Assembly (NCBI RefSeq): GCF_038005985.1
Contig: NZ_JBBOUI010000001.1
Location: forward strand, 1,012,001 to 1,076,000
Source of the DNA: Solibacillus sp. FSL R7-0682
GTDB taxonomy: Bacteria; Bacillota; Bacilli; Bacillales_A; Planococcaceae
Length of the DNA: 64,000 nucleotides
Reading direction: 5' to 3'
Under the pieces are notes generated by a model. That model was not told where the DNA came from. It made no database searches and saw only the letters and a program-made list of their open reading frames with translations. Positions 20,909 to 32,140 of the stretch are shown here, one piece after another (within the stretch, counting starts at the first letter, position 1; each line of letters starts with the position of its first letter). Made by a program: the position numbers and the translations under genes.

Positions 20909-20930
20909 AGAACTTATAATTTCAAGCAAA

Positions 20931-21160
20931 GAAGAGTTTGAAGTAGTGGAGACATTCCCTGATGTAGAGAGCTAGCGGATGGTGAAAGCTAGACAAAGTG
21001 TTTTCATGAATTACGTACTTGGAGCTTGAACGTTTCGTCGCGATATAGACGCTTAAAGTGGAAGAAAGGTTACATTTCTTCAAGCCGGGTGGTACCGCGT
21101 TAAATGATGATAATTTGACGTCCCTGCATGCAGTTTGCGTGTAGGGACGTTTTTTATTTC
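20931..21160 (+). ncRNA. T-box riboswitch leader of tyrS (tyrosine)
   Basis: A classical T-box leader. Stem I elements AGAGAGCT and GGATGGTG are near 20967-20982. TAC codons in the specifier region (21012-21014 or 21016-21018) match tyrosine. The antiterminator T-box GGGTGGTACCGCG is at 21087-21099. A competing terminator ACGTCCCT/AGGGACGT (21118-21150) with a T-run ends it. Uncharged tRNA-Tyr pairing stabilises the antiterminator and turns on tyrS. Confidence 0.93.
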
Positions 21161-24596: not shown

Positions 24597-25847
24597 TTAT
24601 TTTATAGCAATTGCATGACCTGCTTCTGTTTCGTGGAATTCCTTTTCAGATTTCGATACAATGACACATGCTACCCCGTTACCGATTAAATTCGTAACAG
24701 CACGGGCTTCTGACATGAAGCGGTCTACCCCAATAAGTAATGCAATCCCTTCGACTGGAACCATTGGGAAGGCGGCTAAAGTAGCAGCTAATGTAATGAA
24801 GCCAGAACCTGTAACACCAGCGGCACCTTTTGAAGTAATCATCAGTACCCCTAATAAAGTAATAACTTCAATCCAAGATAGGTCTACGCCATACGCTTGC
24901 GCAATAAATAATGCTGCCATTGATAAATAAATCGAGGTACCGTCTAAGTTAAATGAATAACCGGTTGGGACAACAAGTCCTACTACTTGCTTAGAACAGC
25001 CTAAGTTTTCAAGTTTCCGCATCATGGATGGTAATGCGGATTCAGATGAAGATGTCCCGATTACTAGGAAAATCTCATCTTTAATGTAAGCAATGTATTT
25101 AAATATATTAAAGCCGTAAAAACGAGCGATTAAACCAAGGACAACAACGATGAATAAAAACATAGTAATGTACACAGCGACCATTAATAGGCCAAGGGAT
25201 TTTAATGAACCAAGTCCGAAGTTACCTATTGTATAGGCCATTGCTCCGAAAGCACCGATTGGCGATACTTTCATTACCATTCCTACAATTTTGAAGAAAA
25301 TTTCAGATACTTGTTCACAAAACGAAATGACTGGTTTTGATTTTTCACCAAGTGCAGCAGCTGCAATCCCAAATAAAACTGCGCAAAGTAAAGTAGGTAA
25401 TAGATCCCCATTCGCAAGTGCACCAAAAAAATTATCTGGAATAATATTATAGATAAATCCACCTAAGCCCGCATCACTATTTTCTTCAGCAGCTGTAGTG
25501 TATTTCGAAATATCTGCATCACCAGCTTTTGATGTATCAATACCTGCTCCAGCATTTATAATAACTGCTACACAAATACCAATCGCTAAAGCAATCGTGG
25601 AAACGATTTCAAAATACAGTAGCGCTTTGCCGCCGATTTTCCCAACCTTTTTCATGTCTCCCATACTACCAATACCGATAACAACCGTTAAAAAGATAAT
25701 AGGGGCGATTAACATTTTAATTAATTTAATAAATAGATCTGCTAAAATTTTTAAACTAGCCCCAAATTCAGGCCAAATCGCACCAACAATAATACCGAGT
25801 ATGATAGCTACAATAACTTGTACCGTCAAATTTTTTAGGTACTTCAT
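24597..25847 (-). CDS. Dicarboxylate/amino acid:cation symporter (DAACS family)
   Basis: A 416-residue transporter with eight or so membrane helices and the DAACS signature. This comprises the serine-rich re-entrant loop GTSSSESALPSMMRKLE, VVPTGYSFNLDGTSIYLSM in helix 7, and KGAAGVTGSGFITLAATLA. It imports C4-dicarboxylates or glutamate/aspartate with H+ or Na+; which substrate cannot be read from sequence. The ATG at 25847 is preferred over a TTG six bases further out, because GAAGGA has good spacing only to the ATG. Monocistronic. Confidence 0.9.
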   Translation of the reverse strand: MKYLKNLTVQVIVAIILGIIVGAIWPEFGASLKILADLFIKLIKMLIAPIIFLTVVIGIGSMGDMKKVGKIGGKALLYFEIVSTIALAIGICVAVIINAGAGIDTSKAGDADISKYTTAAEENSDAGLGGFIYNIIPDNFFGALANGDLLPTLLCAVLFGIAAAALGEKSKPVISFCEQVSEIFFKIVGMVMKVSPIGAFGAMAYTIGNFGLGSLKSLGLLMVAVYITMFLFIVVVLGLIARFYGFNIFKYIAYIKDEIFLVIGTSSSESALPSMMRKLENLGCSKQVVGLVVPTGYSFNLDGTSIYLSMAALFIAQAYGVDLSWIEVITLLGVLMITSKGAAGVTGSGFITLAATLAAFPMVPVEGIALLIGVDRFMSEARAVTNLIGNGVACVIVSKSEKEFHETEAGHAIAIK

Positions 25848-26584
25848 GGACAATCCTTCTTCCTATTCATGTATGATAAAAATCTGCTTTATGTGTCTGA
25901 ACGATTGTTATAATACACCTAAAAAAATGAGTTGTGTAATTTTGTTCATAAAAAATACTTAATTTTTAATCTGTTTTATTTAGTTGAAAATACTGAATTT
26001 CTGTTTATAAAACTTATTTTCTGTTCTGTGTTAGTAATGAACTGTTCTATTACAACTCGTTTGAATATAAAAAAACATCGTAAAATTCTATTTTGTTCAT
26101 TTTGTTCATTAGGGTAATATCAATCAACTTTGTAAAATATAAAGAAGATTTGTTGTACTTATCCCAGTCGTGTAGCAAGTTCAAAAAAGAATTTGCATCC
26201 ATCTGAAATCGATATACTCTCGGTGCTAGGGATTGAATCACTTTTGGGGAAGTTGGGAGTGATGAAAATAGATAAATTGCTCGATAGCATGTTGTATTTC
26301 TTTCTATAAACATTTGCATTATCAAATGCGAGTAGAAGGGCTTAATTTAATATGTAAATTGAAAGAGCAAAGTTCTCCAATAACCTTATAGAATGTTGCC
26401 TGAACTTTTACTCTTCCTTAAAAAATTTTGAAGTGACTTTATCAAATAGATAAATCATGGGTATTCTTCCCGTTCTATTTTGGTAACTACCATACCGAAA
26501 ATGGGGAGTATCTATTTTAAATTAAGTTGAAGTACTTACGACAATGATTGTTGATTATGAAGTTAACTTATCGAGATAGCTCTT
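25848..26584. other. Gene-poor gap of about 740 bases
   Basis: AT-rich sequence between the symporter and the YVTN gene. Only short unconvincing frames occur (for instance a 91-codon minus-strand frame ending at 26050 without a ribosome binding site). No RNA gene, terminator or mobile-element end was recognised beyond the upstream region of the symporter near 25850-25920. Confidence 0.5.
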
Positions 26585-27625
26585 CTAATAACAAATTGTT
26601 CCGGTTTCAATACCGGTAGGTCCGTTAAATCCTGGGAGAGTTGCAATCACTGTATTAGTTGCTATTTTTACGACGGATACAGTATTGTCAGCTTGATTAG
26701 TAACATAAGCAAATTTTCCATTCGGCAAAACTGTTACTTGATCTGGTGATAATCCTACAGGGATCGTTGCAATTACCATATTTGTTATAGTATTTATGAC
26801 GGATACCGTATTACTCCCTTTATTTACAATGTAAACAAGAGTTCCATTAGGTGTAATTGCTGTTCCTACAGGACCTGTTCCTACAGGGATTGTAGTAATA
26901 ACTGTATTTGTTACTGTATTAATGACAGATACATTGTTACTATTTTCGTTTGTAACGTAAGCAAATTGGCCGTTTGGAGTGAGAACGATTGACCTCGGGC
27001 GAATTCCAACAGGGATTGTTGCAACTACAGTATTAGTAGTGGTATTTATGACAGATACAGTACCTGAATTCTCATTGGCGACATAAGCAAACGCACTATT
27101 CGGAGTGAAAGCTATACCTTGAGGTTGGAGTCCTACCGGAATAGTAGCAGTTACGGTATTAGTAGCGGTATTTATGACAGATATGGTGTTTGATCCGTGA
27201 TTGGATACATAAGCAAGTATTCCATTTGGTGAAATAGCTACACCAAGGGGATTAACCCCTACTGGAATGGTAGCAATTGGCGTATTAGTAGCAGTACTAA
27301 AAACCGTTACATTATTCGAGAAGTAAGCTGGAACATAACCAAATACCCCATTTGGTGTAATCGCTATTTCTAAAGGTGCGGATCCTACTGGAATGCTCGC
27401 GACTATTGTATTTGTCGCTGTATCAATTACCGATACTCTATTATCAGGATTGGTTATCTGACCAGCGTCGGTAACGTACACTAAATAATGACAGGGTGGG
27501 GTTGGAGGCACTGGCAAATATGGTAGCTTACTACAACAAGGACAGCAACGAGGGCAACAACAATAACATGGATTTGATTTAAACTTGAACTTGAATCTAT
27601 TAAGATATCTTTGTTCTTTTTCCAC
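26585..27625 (-). CDS. Seven-repeat YVTN beta-propeller protein with cysteine-rich N-terminus
   Basis: A 346-residue protein (353 if read from the ATG at 27646). After a basic, cysteine-cluster head (CYCCCPRCCPCC) and a proline-rich linker come seven repeats of about 42 residues. Each starts Y-V/I-x-N and contains S-V-I-N-T-x-T-N-T-V-x-A-T-I-P-V-G and TPNG; together they are enough to close a seven-bladed propeller. There is no signal peptide. YVTN proteins are surface or adhesive proteins in many microbes. A spore-surface role is inferred from the Cys-rich head and a sigma-K-like -10. The GTG at 27625 is preferred because GAAAGGA lies eight bases upstream, while the ATG lacks space for one. 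Confidence 0.8.
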   Translation of the reverse strand: MEKEQRYLNRFKFKFKSNPCYCCCPRCCPCCSKLPYLPVPPTPPCHYLVYVTDAGQITNPDNRVSVIDTATNTIVASIPVGSAPLEIAITPNGVFGYVPAYFSNNVTVFSTATNTPIATIPVGVNPLGVAISPNGILAYVSNHGSNTISVINTATNTVTATIPVGLQPQGIAFTPNSAFAYVANENSGTVSVINTTTNTVVATIPVGIRPRSIVLTPNGQFAYVTNENSNNVSVINTVTNTVITTIPVGTGPVGTAITPNGTLVYIVNKGSNTVSVINTITNMVIATIPVGLSPDQVTVLPNGKFAYVTNQADNTVSVVKIATNTVIATLPGFNGPTGIETGTICY

Positions 27626-27643
27626 ATTGAACATCCTTTCTAT

Positions 27644-27663
27644 CATATAGTAATACTATATGC
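27644..27663 (-). promoter_or_regulatory. Palindrome with sigma-K-like -10 upstream of the YVTN gene
   Basis: CATATAGTA-A-TACTATATG (27644-27662) is a perfect 9-bp inverted repeat. On the minus strand GCATATAGTA matches the mother-cell sigma-K -10 GCATANNNTA. The -35 AC is about four bases too distant, so sigma-K is only a possibility. Confidence 0.35.
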
Positions 27664-27941
27664 AAAAAAGAATATGCTTTTTGTACATATTACCTAAACA
27701 AATACTACGAATAGTGTCGATTGAATGTTTCTATTTTCCAATGGAATATTGTATACTCTCAGCACCCTCATTAATATATTGTAAGAGGAAATATAAAAAT
27801 ATCGCACTTTAGTTTTTGGAGAAGAAACCGAGCGATTATTAAGTAAGAATTACCAAAAACTAGCTTTAATAAAATAGAAAATTCTAAAGAAAGGAACATG
27901 CGTTTTAATAAAAATTACCTCCAGTTGGAAGCGATATAAAT
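27663..27941. other. AT-rich gap
   Basis: About 280 bases with no open frame, hairpin or promoter that I can support. Confidence 0.4.
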
Positions 27942-28145
27942 GTGATAACAATCGTGATTTTACATAAAAATAGAGAAAAAGTTGAACGGAGTGTTAATTA
28001 TTCGATGTTTAAAAATGAAGAAGAGTTTATTGAAGCATCGGAAGAAAAGCTTTTAGCAATCGTAAAAAATGGGGTACAAACCGGTTCTGGTTTTATCTAT
28101 AGAAGAAATTACAACTATGGTTAGTCATAATTTCGGTCCCTAATA
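27942..28145 (+). pseudogene. Frameshifted paralogue of the 65-residue protein at 29692
   Basis: From GTG 27942 the frame reads MITIVILHKNREKVERSVNY..., clearly related to MIPIVFLHKSGEEVKLSVNY of the gene at 29692. Both share an NEEEFI block and a LAIVK/IAIVK block. After that the frame diverges and stops at 28124. Shifting frame near 28068 restores the match: GYKPVLVLSIEEITTMVSHN here against GYNAVQILTSGENTSMFSHN there, with a stop at 28145. The alignment implies loss of two net bases. The function of either copy is unknown. Confidence 0.6.
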
Positions 28146-28183
28146 ATAAACTCAAAATGTTACATTGTCTTTTTTGACGAATA

Positions 28184-28277
28184 GATAAGAAAAACCCTCG
28201 AAACAAAGGGATTTCCCAGTGTTTCGAGGGTTGAAATTATCTCGGAATAATTAACGAGAGAAGAAGTTATTACGATG
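28184..28277. repeat. Diverged duplicate of the rpsD 3' end and terminator
   Basis: It aligns with 31461-31558. Both read ATAAGAAAA(A)CCC.CG, a hairpin closing with CGAGGGTT, ATCTC-GAATAATTAA and ATTAACGAGAG, then TAC-GAT. Gaps and roughly one mismatch in five show age. The terminator stem AACCCTCGAAAC/GTTTCGAGGGTT (28193-28204/28221-28232) is intact. With the copy beside rpsD it brackets a 3.3-kb group of small genes. Confidence 0.65.
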
Positions 28278-28437
28278 ATTTATAATGCTCAAAATAAAAT
28301 ATAAATTAATGAAATATCTTGAAGGGTCTATAAAATCAATTTAAGAATAAAATTGAAACAATTAATACTTTTAAATTAAATAACATACCTTTATATAACT
28401 GAAAACTTGAATTTCAGCGAAAGGAGATAATATCTGA

Positions 28438-28782
28438 ATGAAAAAAATACTGATTGCAGTTCTTTTTAGTTCTTTTATTTTTTTAATTCCTAATTCGATT
28501 ACAGCAAACAAAACTGATACCAAAATAGAAATGGAAAAAAACAACACATTATCAGATGCATCTTTATTAAATGATAATGTAGATAAGCGATTACACACAT
28601 ATAAAATATTAGATAAACAAACACTTATCAAGAAATTAGAAGAACATCAAAAACTTCGAATTATTGAAGAAATAAAAAAACATAATGCTATATCAATTAC
28701 ATCTGTATTAACTGATAGTGAAGGAAATGTATTAAGCACATACACAATATATAAAGATGATAATCGAATTATAAAACATTAG
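28438..28782 (+). CDS. Small secreted protein of unknown function
   Basis: A 114-residue protein with a clear signal peptide (MKKILIAVLFSSFIFLIPNSITA, probable cleavage after ITA near residue 23). A lysine- and glutamate-rich helical mature part follows and ends in a beta-rich segment. No known family was recognised. AAGGAGAT nine bases upstream supports the ATG. It stands just inside the duplicated rpsD end, as the first gene of the small-gene island. Confidence 0.6.
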   Translation: MKKILIAVLFSSFIFLIPNSITANKTDTKIEMEKNNTLSDASLLNDNVDKRLHTYKILDKQTLIKKLEEHQKLRIIEEIKKHNAISITSVLTDSEGNVLSTYTIYKDDNRIIKH

Positions 28783-28918
28783 TACCTATACCCAAACTAG
28801 TCAATCTCGTGATATTCAGGAGAATCATTTTAGTAGAGGACTTTTTGAATTTATTGACGATTATTTAAAACTGTATAATAATGTATATGATGAAAGGCTA
28901 TTCATCGTTGCGTGATGT

Positions 28919-28946
28919 AAGAGGGTGAGCAATCACTCTCTTTTTT
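28919..28946 (+). terminator. Terminator upstream of the SOS-type operon
   Basis: AGAGGGTGA/TCACTCTCT stem followed by seven T residues. Confidence 0.75.
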
Positions 28947-28948
28947 TA

Positions 28949-28995
28949 TTGCCAAAATACGAACGTTCGTTCTATAATAATGAGAACTAATGTTC
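28949..28995 (+). promoter_or_regulatory. Promoter with two LexA (SOS) boxes
   Basis: TTGCCA (28949-28954), 18 bases, TATAAT (28973-28978). GAACGTTCGTTC (28961-28972) and GAACTAATGTTC (28984-28995) each match GAAC-N4-GTTC, the core of the B. subtilis LexA box. They flank the -10 on both sides. LexA binding would block RNA polymerase until DNA damage. Confidence 0.75.
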
Positions 28996-29013
28996 GTAAA
29001 AGGGAGTGGCAAT

Positions 29014-29235
29014 ATGAAAAAGCAATTAGTAAAAGCAATGCAACGTAATCAATTAGTGGATATTATGTATATGGCGAAAGATAAGTCGATTACTAAACGT
29101 CGTATCAAAGTGATTGCTATGACTGGAGATACATTGGCAGCATATTGTTTTGTTCGCCAAGCCAAGCGTACATTTAAAATTGATAATGTATTAGCAGTAA
29201 TGCCTGTCATCTACGGAGAACGAGTGGTGATTTAA
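29014..29235 (+). CDS. Small WYL-like protein, SOS-type operon
   Basis: A 73-residue protein. Its C-terminal part (AAYCFVRQAKRTFKIDNVLAVMP) resembles the core of WYL domains, where an R-T-F-x-x-D-x-I pattern is common. The N-terminal half is basic. In other Bacilli similar short proteins accompany YolD-like proteins and Y-family repair polymerases; that comparison is from memory. The ATG at 29014 follows GGGAGTGG; an upstream ATG at 28990 overlaps the second LexA box and is unlikely. The next gene starts two bases after its stop. Confidence 0.6.
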   Translation: MKKQLVKAMQRNQLVDIMYMAKDKSITKRRIKVIAMTGDTLAAYCFVRQAKRTFKIDNVLAVMPVIYGERVVI

Positions 29236-29236
29236 T

Positions 29237-29605
29237 ATGAATGCACTCATAGAATTAAGTAACGATATACATCGATTCATCATTCTTGAAGTATTGTTGA
29301 AAACGTTAGAGCGCGATCAACAACATTTGAATGATTTAAAAATGGCTGATGTATTTAATGAATGGTACACATTGAAAAACAATGAAACATTTGAAGAATT
29401 GAAAAATGTAAAAAGCAAATTATATAAAGCAGGATGCAAGATTGAAAAAGGTAAGAATGATGGTGCATTTACAGAGTACATCATAGTAATTAGAGGGAAA
29501 ACCGAAACGAAAAGGTACTCAAATATCGCATTAAGGAATTGGGTAAGAGAAGAAACAAAGCGATTATTGAATATGAGTTATCATACACCTGCTGACCGAA
29601 AGTAA
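29237..29605 (+). CDS. Hypothetical helical protein, second gene of the SOS-type operon
   Basis: A 122-residue, charged, mainly helical soluble protein (FIILEVLLKTLERDQQHL near the N-terminus, a small beta segment around residues 75-95). I do not recognise its family. It starts two bases after the WYL-like gene, with GTGGTGATTT as ribosome binding site, so both are read from the LexA-box promoter. A DNA-damage-related role is suggested only by that promoter. Confidence 0.6.
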   Translation: MNALIELSNDIHRFIILEVLLKTLERDQQHLNDLKMADVFNEWYTLKNNETFEELKNVKSKLYKAGCKIEKGKNDGAFTEYIIVIRGKTETKRYSNIALRNWVREETKRLLNMSYHTPADRK

Positions 29606-29607
29606 AA

Positions 29608-29640
29608 AAATGCCCAAAAAGAAAGTTTCGGGCATTTCAT
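29608..29640 (+). terminator. Terminator of the SOS-type operon
   Basis: AAATGCCC/GGGCATTT stem three bases after the stop codon. Confidence 0.7.
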
Positions 29641-29691
29641 TCAAAATCACTTCCAAATAATGTATTTTGTTGTTAGGAGGTGATAATAATC

Positions 29692-29889
29692 TTGATACCA
29701 ATCGTATTTTTACACAAAAGTGGTGAAGAAGTTAAATTGAGTGTTAATTACTTAATGTTTAATAATGAAGAAGAATTTATAAAAACATCTGAAGAAACGC
29801 TCATCGCTATAGTAAAAGACTTGGGGTATAATGCAGTTCAAATTTTAACTTCAGGAGAAAATACAAGTATGTTCAGTCATAATAGATAA
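29692..29889 (+). CDS. Small hypothetical protein (intact paralogue of 27942)
   Basis: A 65-residue protein starting MIPIVFLHKSGEEVKLSVNY. The TTG at 29692 is chosen because AGGAGGTGA lies eight bases upstream; a GTG at 29680 overlaps that ribosome binding site. The middle block NNEEEFIKTSEETLIAIVKDLG is conserved in the frameshifted copy at 27942. The closely spaced acidic residues and short length suggest a small regulatory or antitoxin-like protein, but this is a guess. Confidence 0.55.
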   Translation: MIPIVFLHKSGEEVKLSVNYLMFNNEEEFIKTSEETLIAIVKDLGYNAVQILTSGENTSMFSHNR

Positions 29890-29922
29890 GCCATCCACAT
29901 ACTCGATTGTGGATGGCGCTTT
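29890..29922 (+). terminator. Terminator after the 65-residue gene
   Basis: GCCATCCACA/TGTGGATGGC 10-bp stem followed by GCTTTTATT. Confidence 0.8.
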
Positions 29923-30096
29923 TATTACCGAAGGAAATCATTAATAGAGTTTTAATTCTCGATACTGGACCTACTTCATCAAAGATTAATGGTGCCTGCA
30001 TCTATCTTTATTATACGCTTATTAACCAATCTACCTAAATAAAAAGTAGACCAAAAAAATAAAGATAAATTGATGGGTAATTTTAATTCCGCCTAT

Positions 30097-30438
30097 TTAT
30101 TCCAAGGTAGGTTGTGATGCAGCGCATACTCCACTACAGTAAACTGTACCAGCGTACCTTACAGAAGTTTTATTAACATCAGGGACATAAATAGCAAAAA
30201 CCATTGGTATTCTTCCACTATAGCCGAGGGAATCACTATAATAATATGAGTCGTCCCCCTTTACAAATCCGTCATATACTACTTCATGTACAACATATCT
30301 ACTGATTGCTAATGGTGTAACTTCGTCGCTCAATGTACTGCCGGAGATAGAAGATGCAGATGTTTGGTTAACTGATGAACCAAAAGACATTATTAATGAT
30401 AGACCCACTAATCCGATTAAGCTGATTAACTTTTTCAT
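30097..30438 (-). CDS. Secreted small protein with aromatic beta-rich C-terminus
   Basis: A 113-residue protein. The signal peptide (about residues 1-29, ending near NQTSA) precedes a Ser/Thr linker, then a mature domain rich in Tyr, Gly, Val and Asp (GDDSYYYSDSLGYSGRIPMV). Two cysteines lie close together near the C-terminus (TVYCSGVCAASQ), able to form a disulfide. I do not recognise the family; an extracellular or bacteriocin-like role is possible but unproven. ATG at 30438 behind AAGGAGAG. It lies alone on the minus strand. Confidence 0.6.
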   Translation of the reverse strand: MKKLISLIGLVGLSLIMSFGSSVNQTSASSISGSTLSDEVTPLAISRYVVHEVVYDGFVKGDDSYYYSDSLGYSGRIPMVFAIYVPDVNKTSVRYAGTVYCSGVCAASQPTLE

Positions 30439-30711
30439 AATAAACAACTCTCCTTTATAATTAATTACTAAAATTCATACTTCCTCCTTCTTTACATATA
30501 CTATACAACGCTCACCATTTACTTCAATGCTTAAAAAGTATGAATATTCCGATAAATTATGACATTTTTTTCACTAGGTTACGTAAACGGAAAAGTTAGT
30601 ACTATTAACTAAGTGGTATGACTGGTCTTTATTGTGGTAAAACTGCATGTGTAAGGAAAAGAAGTTCTTAAAACAGGCTAAAATTTAGTTAGGAAAGGAA
30701 GAGGCAAGATC

Positions 30712-31140
30712 ATGATCATGATGAAAAAATTATTAACTATTGGAGCTGCATTAAGCGCTATTATGGTAGGAGCATATAATGGCGATTCGAAGGTTGAAAA
30801 AGTAAAACCAGAAGTGTTTGTTGAACAAGAACACACAAATCTTCCAATTCAGGAATATACAAACTTTTTAATTTCAGAAGAAATGGAGTTAGAAAAAGAT
30901 ATTGCAAATGAAACAGGTTTTGAAGAAGAATCCATAAAGGTTAATTTAATGCCTATTTCCGGAGGAGAATACCCAGAAATAGCGTGTGTAATTTTATTAT
31001 CCACAGAGAACAAGCTTAATAAGACAACTGAACAACTCATAGTAAAAAATATAATGACCGCTGTATCTGACATAAAAAACACAAAGCTTAGTGAGAAACA
31101 CATCTCTATTTTATATGAAAAAGGGGAAATTCTTAATTAA
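30712..31140 (+). CDS. Hypothetical exported protein, lipobox-like site without cysteine
   Basis: A 142-residue protein. The N-terminus MIMMKKLLTIGAALSAIMVGAYNG has the n-h pattern of a lipoprotein signal, but where a lipobox would need Cys the sequence has Tyr (VGAY). The mature part is acidic, with a beta-strand/helix pattern ending SEKHISILYEKGEILN. No family is recognised, though the size and layout resemble small Bacillus sporulation lipoproteins of the YhcN/YlaJ kind. AAGGAAGAGG precedes the ATG. A sporulation role is only speculation. Confidence 0.5.
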   Translation: MIMMKKLLTIGAALSAIMVGAYNGDSKVEKVKPEVFVEQEHTNLPIQEYTNFLISEEMELEKDIANETGFEEESIKVNLMPISGGEYPEIACVILLSTENKLNKTTEQLIVKNIMTAVSDIKNTKLSEKHISILYEKGEILN

Positions 31141-31264
31141 CACGCAGTTAAGAGAATGTTGAAAAAGATTCACTTCAACTAACAGGTAGCTCTAGTTGAA
31201 ATTTCGATTCTAGTATCATCAATCTTTATTACGTAAACAAAGCGAGAAATATGGTTTCCCAACA

Positions 31265-31303
31265 ATGCCAAAAAAGAAGAAGAAAAAGAAGAAAAATGAG
31301 TGA
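31265..31303 (+). CDS. Possible 12-residue polylysine mini-ORF
   Basis: ATG at 31265 encodes MPKKKKKKKKNE followed by TGA. A hairpin CCTTTCACA/TGTGAAGGG with T-run follows 12 bases later (31315-31343), like a terminator. No good ribosome binding site is present, so coding status is doubtful; the purine run may be chance. Confidence 0.2.
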   Translation: MPKKKKKKKKNE

Positions 31304-31314
31304 AATATATATAG

Positions 31315-31343
31315 CCTTTCACACAATTTGTGAAGGGTTTTTC
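31315..31343 (+). terminator. Terminator-like hairpin
   Basis: CCTTTCACA/TGTGAAGGG stem followed by TTTTTCTTTT, within a 320-base gap between the 142-residue gene and the rpsD terminator. Confidence 0.6.
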
Positions 31344-31460
31344 TTTTATGTAAATGTACATCTGCCCGATATATATTATAAATTTTAGGTTCCCCCAGCG
31401 GTCCCCCAATTTTAATCAAAAATAATCGTAAATTGTCGTATTGAAAAATTAAATGAATAT

Positions 31461-31507
31461 ATAAGAAAACCCCCGTAACATAAGGTTTCCCAAATGTTCC
31501 GAGGGTT
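31461..31507 (-). terminator. Terminator after rpsD
   Basis: TGTTCCGAGGGTT pairs with AACCCCCGTAACA. On the minus strand a T-run follows. This region is duplicated at 28184-28277. Confidence 0.75.
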
Positions 31508-31537
31508 AAAAAATCTCGAATAATTAACTCGAAAGAA

Positions 31538-32140
31538 TTAACGAGAGTAGTACTCTACGATTAATTGCTCGCTGATTTCAGAAGATAATTCAGAGCGCTC
31601 TGGTAAACGTACGAAAGTACCTACTTTAGAGTCAGCATCGAATGATAAATATTCTGGTACGAAGCTATTTACTTCGATTGATTCAGCAACTACTGATAAG
31701 TTAGCTGATTTCTCACGTAAAGAGATCGTTTGACCTGGTTTTACTGAGTATGATGGGATGTCAAGGCGTTTACCATCAACTAAGATGTGGCCATGGTTTA
31801 CTAATTGACGAGCTGCACGACGAGTGCGAGCTAAACCTAAACGGTAAACTAGGTTGTCAAGGCGAGTTTCAAGTAAGATCATGAAGTTTTCACCGTGTAG
31901 ACCTTTTAATTTACCAGCTTTGTTGTAAACGTTTTTGAATTGACGTTCAGTCATACCATACATATGACGTAATTTTTGTTTTTCAGTTAATTGTAGACCG
32001 TACTCTGATTTTTTACCACGAGAGTTTGGACCGTGTTGACCTGGTGCGTAAGGGCGTTTAGCAATTTCTTTACCTGTGCCGCTTAATGAAATACCAAGAC
32101 GACGAGAAAGTTTCCAAGATGGACCTGTATAACGAGACAT
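31538..32140 (-). CDS. rpsD: 30S ribosomal protein S4
   Basis: S4 binds 16S rRNA early in 30S assembly. The 200-residue protein shows the N-terminal [21 protein letters not shown], typical of the Bacillus zinc-independent form. The central S4 domain begins [25 protein letters not shown]. It ends [20 protein letters not shown] precedes the ATG. As in B. subtilis it is monocistronic with a long leader, so autoregulation by S4 is likely. Confidence 0.98.

Follow-up and report, generated by a model that had tools for sequence, protein, structure and literature searches.

Integration into the 3' end of rpsD is already known from streptococci. According to the relevant passages of the reports concerned, SagCI integrates in the rpsD 3' end of Streptococcus agalactiae (PMC4129442), PICI1 and PICI2 of the same species, both phage-inducible chromosomal islands (PICIs), sit in rpsD (PMC7487436), and the listing of a pneumococcal prophage site names the S4 gene (PMC8637289). 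No Bacillales case stood among the literature matches listed for rpsD-sited elements, and the Lysinibacillus prophage match concerns Macrococcus; the site of IME8 of L. sphaericus, as given in the passage describing it, is yolD beside uvrX (PMC13239906). Here we describe a small-gene island beside rpsD in Solibacillus sp. FSL R7-0682. The window, that is, the whole stretch of 64,000 nucleotides that was analysed (contig NZ_JBBOUI010000001.1, positions 1,012,001 to 1,076,000, forward strand), contains two similar sequences at the borders of this island, copy A (28184-28277) and copy B at rpsD itself (31461-31558), which a sequence-only reading had taken for a duplicated rpsD 3' end bracketing a degraded integrative element without integrase. 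We consider it well supported, at a probability of about 85%, that this island represents what is left, on the rpsD side, of one or two decayed prophages once integrated at the rpsD 3' end; the earlier suggestion of a degraded element at this site finds good support in integrase-bearing relatives, uninserted relatives and a prophage-like layout on the rpsD side.

The described systems resemble the window to different degrees. SagCI, PICI1 and PICI2 share with it the attachment gene, in SagCI at the 3' end, but the passages that describe them present satellites of ~15 kb with integrase and primase from another bacterial order, whereas the window lacks both genes and contains the end of an endolysin gene. 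A 42 kb prophage of Lysinibacillus antri (L191-L193; relatives are cited by our genome, G, and locus, L, numbers) agrees with the window in its site, its small genes next to rpsD, its convergent endolysin and its paired G-runs; unlike the window it has an integrase and a core pair identical over ~14 bp, and its small genes are different ones. A tandem arrangement in genome G184 (L150, L201, L202) parallels our reading of the window in that two elements follow each other, separated by cores, with G-runs beyond the middle core, but there both integrases are present and the first element is satellite-like.

Elements with an integrase that are bounded by the rpsD-end core, which the sequence-only reading had proposed to look for, are indeed found in relatives. 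The core pattern GARTWYTAYTCYCGTTAA is present in 123 of 200 family genomes, and pairs of cores on the same strand lie 15.7 kb (G184), 11.4 kb (G044) and 7.7 kb (G147) apart, identical by eye over 21-22 bp; this count leaves aside pairs 141 kb (G132) or more than 1 Mb (G194 and G033) apart and one spread over two contigs (G168). A tyrosine integrase of 406 aa ends just before the distal core of G184, and no integrase was noticed among the open reading frames (ORFs) listed between the core pairs of G044 and G147. Thirty loci with related integrases, the best of 73 genomes with a match, were scanned, and five of them (G184, G084, G168, G199, G179) have the core, with at most 2 mismatches, just past the integrase. 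The distal core is immediately preceded by the tyrosine integrase in G184, G084 (core pair 14.8 kb apart), G168 and L. antri, and in G199 at a contig edge. The endolysin of G179 recurs at 100% in locus L071 of L. antri NZ_RYYR01000002.1; the L. antri prophage extends 42 kb from rpsD to the integrase-side core, with a shared core of only ~14 bp, in the order rpsD, small genes, convergent endolysin, further genes, integrase, core. At a distance of 54 kb past its middle core, G184 has a second integrase, of the same clade as the first, together with a third core (3 mismatches), so that this genome is read as having a satellite-like element and a ~54 kb element, the latter with lysis and tail genes by eye, in tandem at rpsD. 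On these comparisons the predicted attachment site in the family is the rpsD 3' end, which indicates that rpsD integration, reported in streptococci, extends to prophages and satellites of the Lysinibacillus/Planococcaceae group.

The gene order of the window can be compared with that of other prophages. Towards rpsD it runs endolysin end, small protein, SOS pair (a small WYL-domain protein and its partner o29237), o29680, two small secreted-type proteins, G-runs, terminator, core, rpsD. In Metasolibacillus (L070) the strand opposite to rpsD carries a Y-family polymerase gene, a WYL gene, regulator-like genes, an endolysin gene 63% identical to that of G013 and a holin-like gene, regulators and holin being called by eye, and G-runs lie between rpsD and the WYL and polymerase genes. 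At the far end of a prophage region elsewhere in the Solibacillus genome (integrase at 1523 kb) follow an endolysin, assigned by family match, and, in an order read mostly by eye, a small gene, the SOS pair, a small gene, an aroK-like and a gcvT-like gene. An endolysin gene or a fragment of one convergent with rpsD also occurs in G013, G001 and G002; the rpsD interval of G001 holds an endolysin fragment and a uvrX-yolD operon, and the G002 fragment (L026:2579-2932), for which no lysis family was matched, is called an endolysin fragment on the basis of tblastn alone, with 60% over 57 aa against the endolysin of L066. With a lysis gene convergent with rpsD (its end at 28251-28304) and accessory genes between the two, laid out as in L. 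antri (L191) and L070, the window retains the rpsD-side order of rpsD-sited prophages.

The extent of the insertion is smaller than had been proposed. The sequence-only reading had treated the whole 22.5-31.5 kb as an insertion hot spot, which is ruled out by the conserved genes between tyrS and rpsD: a Yip1-like gene is present there in 14 of 14 relatives with a contig spanning the place and a gene of the penicillin-binding protein (PBP) type in 13 of them, a fifteenth relative, G004, being left out as it stops at a contig edge. Uninserted relatives, another proposed check, do exist. In G009 (L033) the match to window 25852-26128 stops 64 bp past the rpsD stop, so the inserted stretch would span about 26129-31537, and only ~26.1-31.5 kb of the proposed hot spot is inserted.

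The likeness between A and B is well above chance, as the sequence-only reading required of it. Against 300 dinucleotide-preserving shuffles of 25001-31440 the alignment scores 75; the best shuffle reaches 35, and no other place in the window exceeds 28. Taken separately, the terminator block scores 59 against a shuffle maximum of 35 and is reached by 0 of 2000 shuffles, and the core block scores 40 against 34, or 36 against 30 without the endolysin letters, with 0 of 2000 shuffles reaching either value. In the whole genome B is the only other match of the A terminator half at E < 0.02 (E 7.8e-8), the hairpin's own other strand aside. The bounds first given for the repeat are too narrow: 29521-29883 recurs as 27797-28131 (69%, E 6.5e-48) and 31418-31528 as 28142-28255 (73%, E 2e-14), while ~1.5 kb (29884-31418) is present on the right side only. 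The longer repeat, 27797-28255 against 29521-31528, keeps the order SOS-gene end, small ORF, terminator, rpsD end, and its left stretch consists of the decayed 3' end of an o29237 copy followed by o27942, a paralogue of o29680.

Copy A itself is composite. The letters it shares with the rpsD core amount to the 11 nt ATTAACGAGAG; rightwards from there, the query 28160-28300 also matches two other places in the genome, both 3' ends of endolysin-type genes. From 28254/28260 to 28303-28312 the matches to endolysin 3' ends are 93% over 44 nt (L040), 83% over 53 nt (L041) and 78% over 54 nt (L037), and the window translates here as LTREEVITMIYNAQNKI-stop, the first codons overlapping the core. The L041 and G013 (L037) genes match endolysin families, the L040 gene is tied to that of G013 by tblastn only, and the G013 gene is convergent with rpsD, 247 bp from its stop. 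Since the sequence right of ATTAACGAGAG matches endolysin gene ends, A is best described as a terminator and ATTAACGAGAG fused to an endolysin end; the letters after the 11 core nt resemble the core partly by chance. Apparent agreement of A with TWCTWCTCTCGTTAAT at 16 of 16 positions was set aside, as the second W of that pattern had been picked after seeing A and its last letters are endolysin-derived. Viewed as the two ends of an element, B has the full rpsD core, whereas A has 11 nt and the terminator and is not a plain host-side end. The left copy was therefore correctly recognised in its terminator and 11-nt core as a duplicated rpsD 3' end, and wrongly in its right part, which comes from the endolysin. 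Nor does it stand as a plain host-side repeat: it is joined rightwards to the endolysin end, and a simple attL/attR bracket is rejected because a second copy of the element end sits on its left. If tandem prophages hold, A would be a phage-phage junction and not a host-side repeat.

The history that we favour would begin with recombination by a tyrosine integrase at the last rpsD codons, inserting one, more likely two related tandem prophages. Integration would give rpsD an identical tail and a phage-borne terminator and so leave the gene unharmed. The integrase, the structural genes and most of the endolysin gene would have been deleted later, leaving beside rpsD core B, the terminator, the paired G-runs, the last part of the endolysin gene and the accessory genes, among them the SOS-controlled pair. 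Copy A would then be the core separating this remnant from another one to the left, of which a terminator, o27942 and the SOS-gene end would survive, and a deletion would have joined the A core to the endolysin end.

Several observations weigh against this history. Family scans covered 7 island proteins, with some short ORFs outside the scan, and no integrase family was found among the 7, as the sequence-only reading had also held; the island is for this reason taken as a remnant rather than an element. No third core with at most 2 mismatches is found in the window, an absence which, after decay, fits either one or two prophages. The core at A is short, 11 nt, and A is accompanied by a single G-run at +110 within a stretch whose weak likeness to B is reached in score by 45 of 2000 shuffles. 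Elsewhere the strict G-run motif is absent from G044 and from the rpsD side of G184. Two rpsD-type integrases found no match by tblastn in 80 named rpsD loci (reach at most 10 kb), so the motif in L086, L107, L108, L117, L126 and L127 (2 of the 6 loci inspected) is not tied to an integrase. An endolysin lies within ~1.5 kb of the SOS pair in only 3 of 19 other loci, the copy of the pair in L067 of the same genome stands among genes that look ordinary by eye, and neither phage records nor viral contigs gave a match to o29237 or o29680.

The strongest competitor shares the prophage origin and departs from our reading only in how many prophages it assumes: a single remnant would have been duplicated in tandem through recombination between the rpsD end and a similar endolysin-end stretch, the left copy being shortened afterwards. 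One event would then account for both the fusion at A and the repeat in the same order, and the composite of SOS end and o29680 occurs in both copies but is missing next to the SOS copies of L066 and L067. On the other hand, o29680 is closer to its L041 copy (83%) than to o27942 (77%); the two paralogues differ by a synonymous divergence (dS) of 0.75 and a non-synonymous divergence (dN) of 0.17 over 42 codons with only 24 synonymous sites, like SOS genes of separate loci, compared with a dS of ~0.2 for rpsD, a codon-biased yardstick, between sister species; and tandem elements do occur at the site (G184). We hold such a duplication possible with the odds somewhat against it, and among prophage remnants two in tandem are ranked as more likely than one, so that we infer two prophages instead of one duplicated remnant.

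An origin from a phage satellite or another integrative element, instead of a full prophage, is improbable. The satellite-like elements of ~15 kb that G184 and G084 carry at this site and the islands at rpsD in G044 and G147 without a noticed integrase would speak for it, but the window contains an endolysin end in the order of the full prophages of L. antri and Metasolibacillus, and by eye there is no endolysin among the listed ORFs of the G184 and G084 elements. Of the marks of a PICI, primase, divergent regulators and integrase were all absent from the scanned island proteins; phage structural or packaging genes were absent from them too, and PADLOC returned WYL-domain matches only. It is very improbable that no mobile element was involved and that host genes gathered by chance while ordinary rearrangement copied the rpsD terminator: the island has no integrase and the core at A is short, but core, terminator, G-runs and endolysin end all follow the order of real rpsD elements. 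The features on which the prophage-remnant reading draws are collected in the table, together with those of the flanks.

Table. Features of the rpsD island and its flanks in window coordinates
Feature	Position	Strand	Basis
Host sequence upstream of gltP, common to G009 and G013; left insertion edge	25852-26128	.	Local alignment to L033, L037; last ~20 columns uncertain
Gene for a beta-propeller (lactonase-type) repeat protein, within the insertion	26585-27646	-	Pfam Lactonase 1.6e-26
Decayed 3' end, second copy of SOS gene o29237	27797-27881	+	Repeat with 29521-29605
o27942, paralogue of o29680	27942-28124	+	Repeat comparison; dS 0.75, dN 0.17 over 42 codons
Single G-run AGGGACCG to the left of A, 110 bp from core-side stop; may be a relic of an arm site	28133-28141	-	Flanking stretch resembles B weakly
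Terminator hairpin, copy A	28184-28235	.	0/2000 shuffles
Core, copy A, ATTAACGAGAG on + strand	28250-28260	-	Alignment to B
End of endolysin reading frame, LTREEVITMIYNAQNKI-stop	28251-28304	+	Related full genes are endolysins
o28438, small protein, signal-like N-terminus	28438-28782	+	No credible family match
Two LexA-type boxes GAACN4GTTC	28961-28972 and 28984-28995	+	
WYL-domain small protein (putative YolD-like role)	29014-29235	+	Pfam WYL at its cut-off; 82% to L066, 75% to L067
o29237, partner of the WYL protein	29237-29605	+	Copies of 92% and 84% in own genome; model mean pLDDT 92
o29680, small ORF	29680-29889	+	ORF list, repeat with o27942
o30100, small secreted-type protein	30097-30447	-	No family match
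o30712, small secreted-type protein	30712-31140	+	No credible family match
Paired G-runs GGGGGACCGCTGGGGG, putative arm-type site	31392-31407	-	
Terminator hairpin, copy B	31461-31515	.	Alignment and shuffles
Core, copy B = rpsD end TACTACTCTCGTTAAT	31537-31552	-	
rpsD	31538-32140	-	

The paired G-runs, defined as GGGG-N6..9-GGGG at 107-136 bp past the rpsD stop, are present in 12 of 101 rpsD downstream stretches as opposed to 13 of 20200 shuffled ones. They lie at +130 in B, +131 in L. antri and +119 in Metasolibacillus L070, occur also in G084, G168 and G147, and in G184 are found beyond the middle core and not on the rpsD side. Three of 4 elements show the motif again on the integrase side, at -91/-92, and the pairs are putative arm sites of the integrase. 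Together, core and arm-like motif let decayed copies be recognised from the rpsD flank alone, and what looks like a plain direct repeat may turn out to be a junction between two phages instead of an element's outer end. As separate observations at such sites, 7.7 kb between the two rpsD-end cores of G147 (L152, 5350-13043) hold, by eye, a regulator, a transporter and catabolic enzymes, and in Neobacillus niacini (L086, 10689-16717) large genes directly after rpsD and its paired G-runs look by eye like a SagB/YcaO-type peptide-modifying cluster, possibly cargo at the rpsD site.

For the SOS-type operon that had been noted between the copies, the two LexA-type boxes are confirmed. Such boxes stand upstream of the pair here and in all four other loci inspected (L066, L067, L047, L059), and divergence from the copies in the same genome is low at non-synonymous sites, for o29237 (dN 0.04-0.07, dS 0.64-0.67) as for the WYL protein (dN 0.10-0.14, dS 0.47-0.74), which together suggests that the function of the pair has been kept; in the cell it would presumably be under SOS control. 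LexA boxes and a small WYL/YolD-type protein are shared with the UvrX-YolD SOS operons of Gram-positive mobile elements, as the passages describing these present them (PMC6511836, PMC13239906), but the window operon differs in having no Y-family polymerase. As YolD is assigned to the WYL-like superfamily in the passage concerned (PMC6511836), the WYL protein may play the part of YolD without the polymerase; its likeness to the YolD of G001 (E 0.029) was not relied on. The partner o29237 weakly resembles (E 4e-5) the gene product beside YolD and UvrX in G001 and has relatives at L066, L067 and L047-L062. Its model is alpha-alpha-beta3-alpha with a mean predicted local distance difference test (pLDDT) score of 92, and the best PDB fold hit, at E 0.13, fell short of the cut-off of E 0.001. 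We can picture the rpsD 3' end as a landing site that Planococcaceae and Bacillaceae have in common, with satellites and prophages piling up there in tandem and the stretch from endolysin to rpsD tending to survive decay because the host adopted the SOS pair, but this wider scenario is speculative and on balance unlikely.

Among the other genes of the inserted stretch, o29680 is found elsewhere only as broken copies in the same genome (1 of 151 genomes), and the beta-propeller gene has no copy among the other loci compared. The first 37 residues of o28438 gave 12.5 bits, and 16.5 bits against a cut-off of 201, with families named after Shiga toxin B, judged a chance match on the signal-like N-terminus. 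Outside the insertion, a T-box leader lies upstream of tyrS at window 20920-21128 (Rfam RF00230, 93.5 bits).

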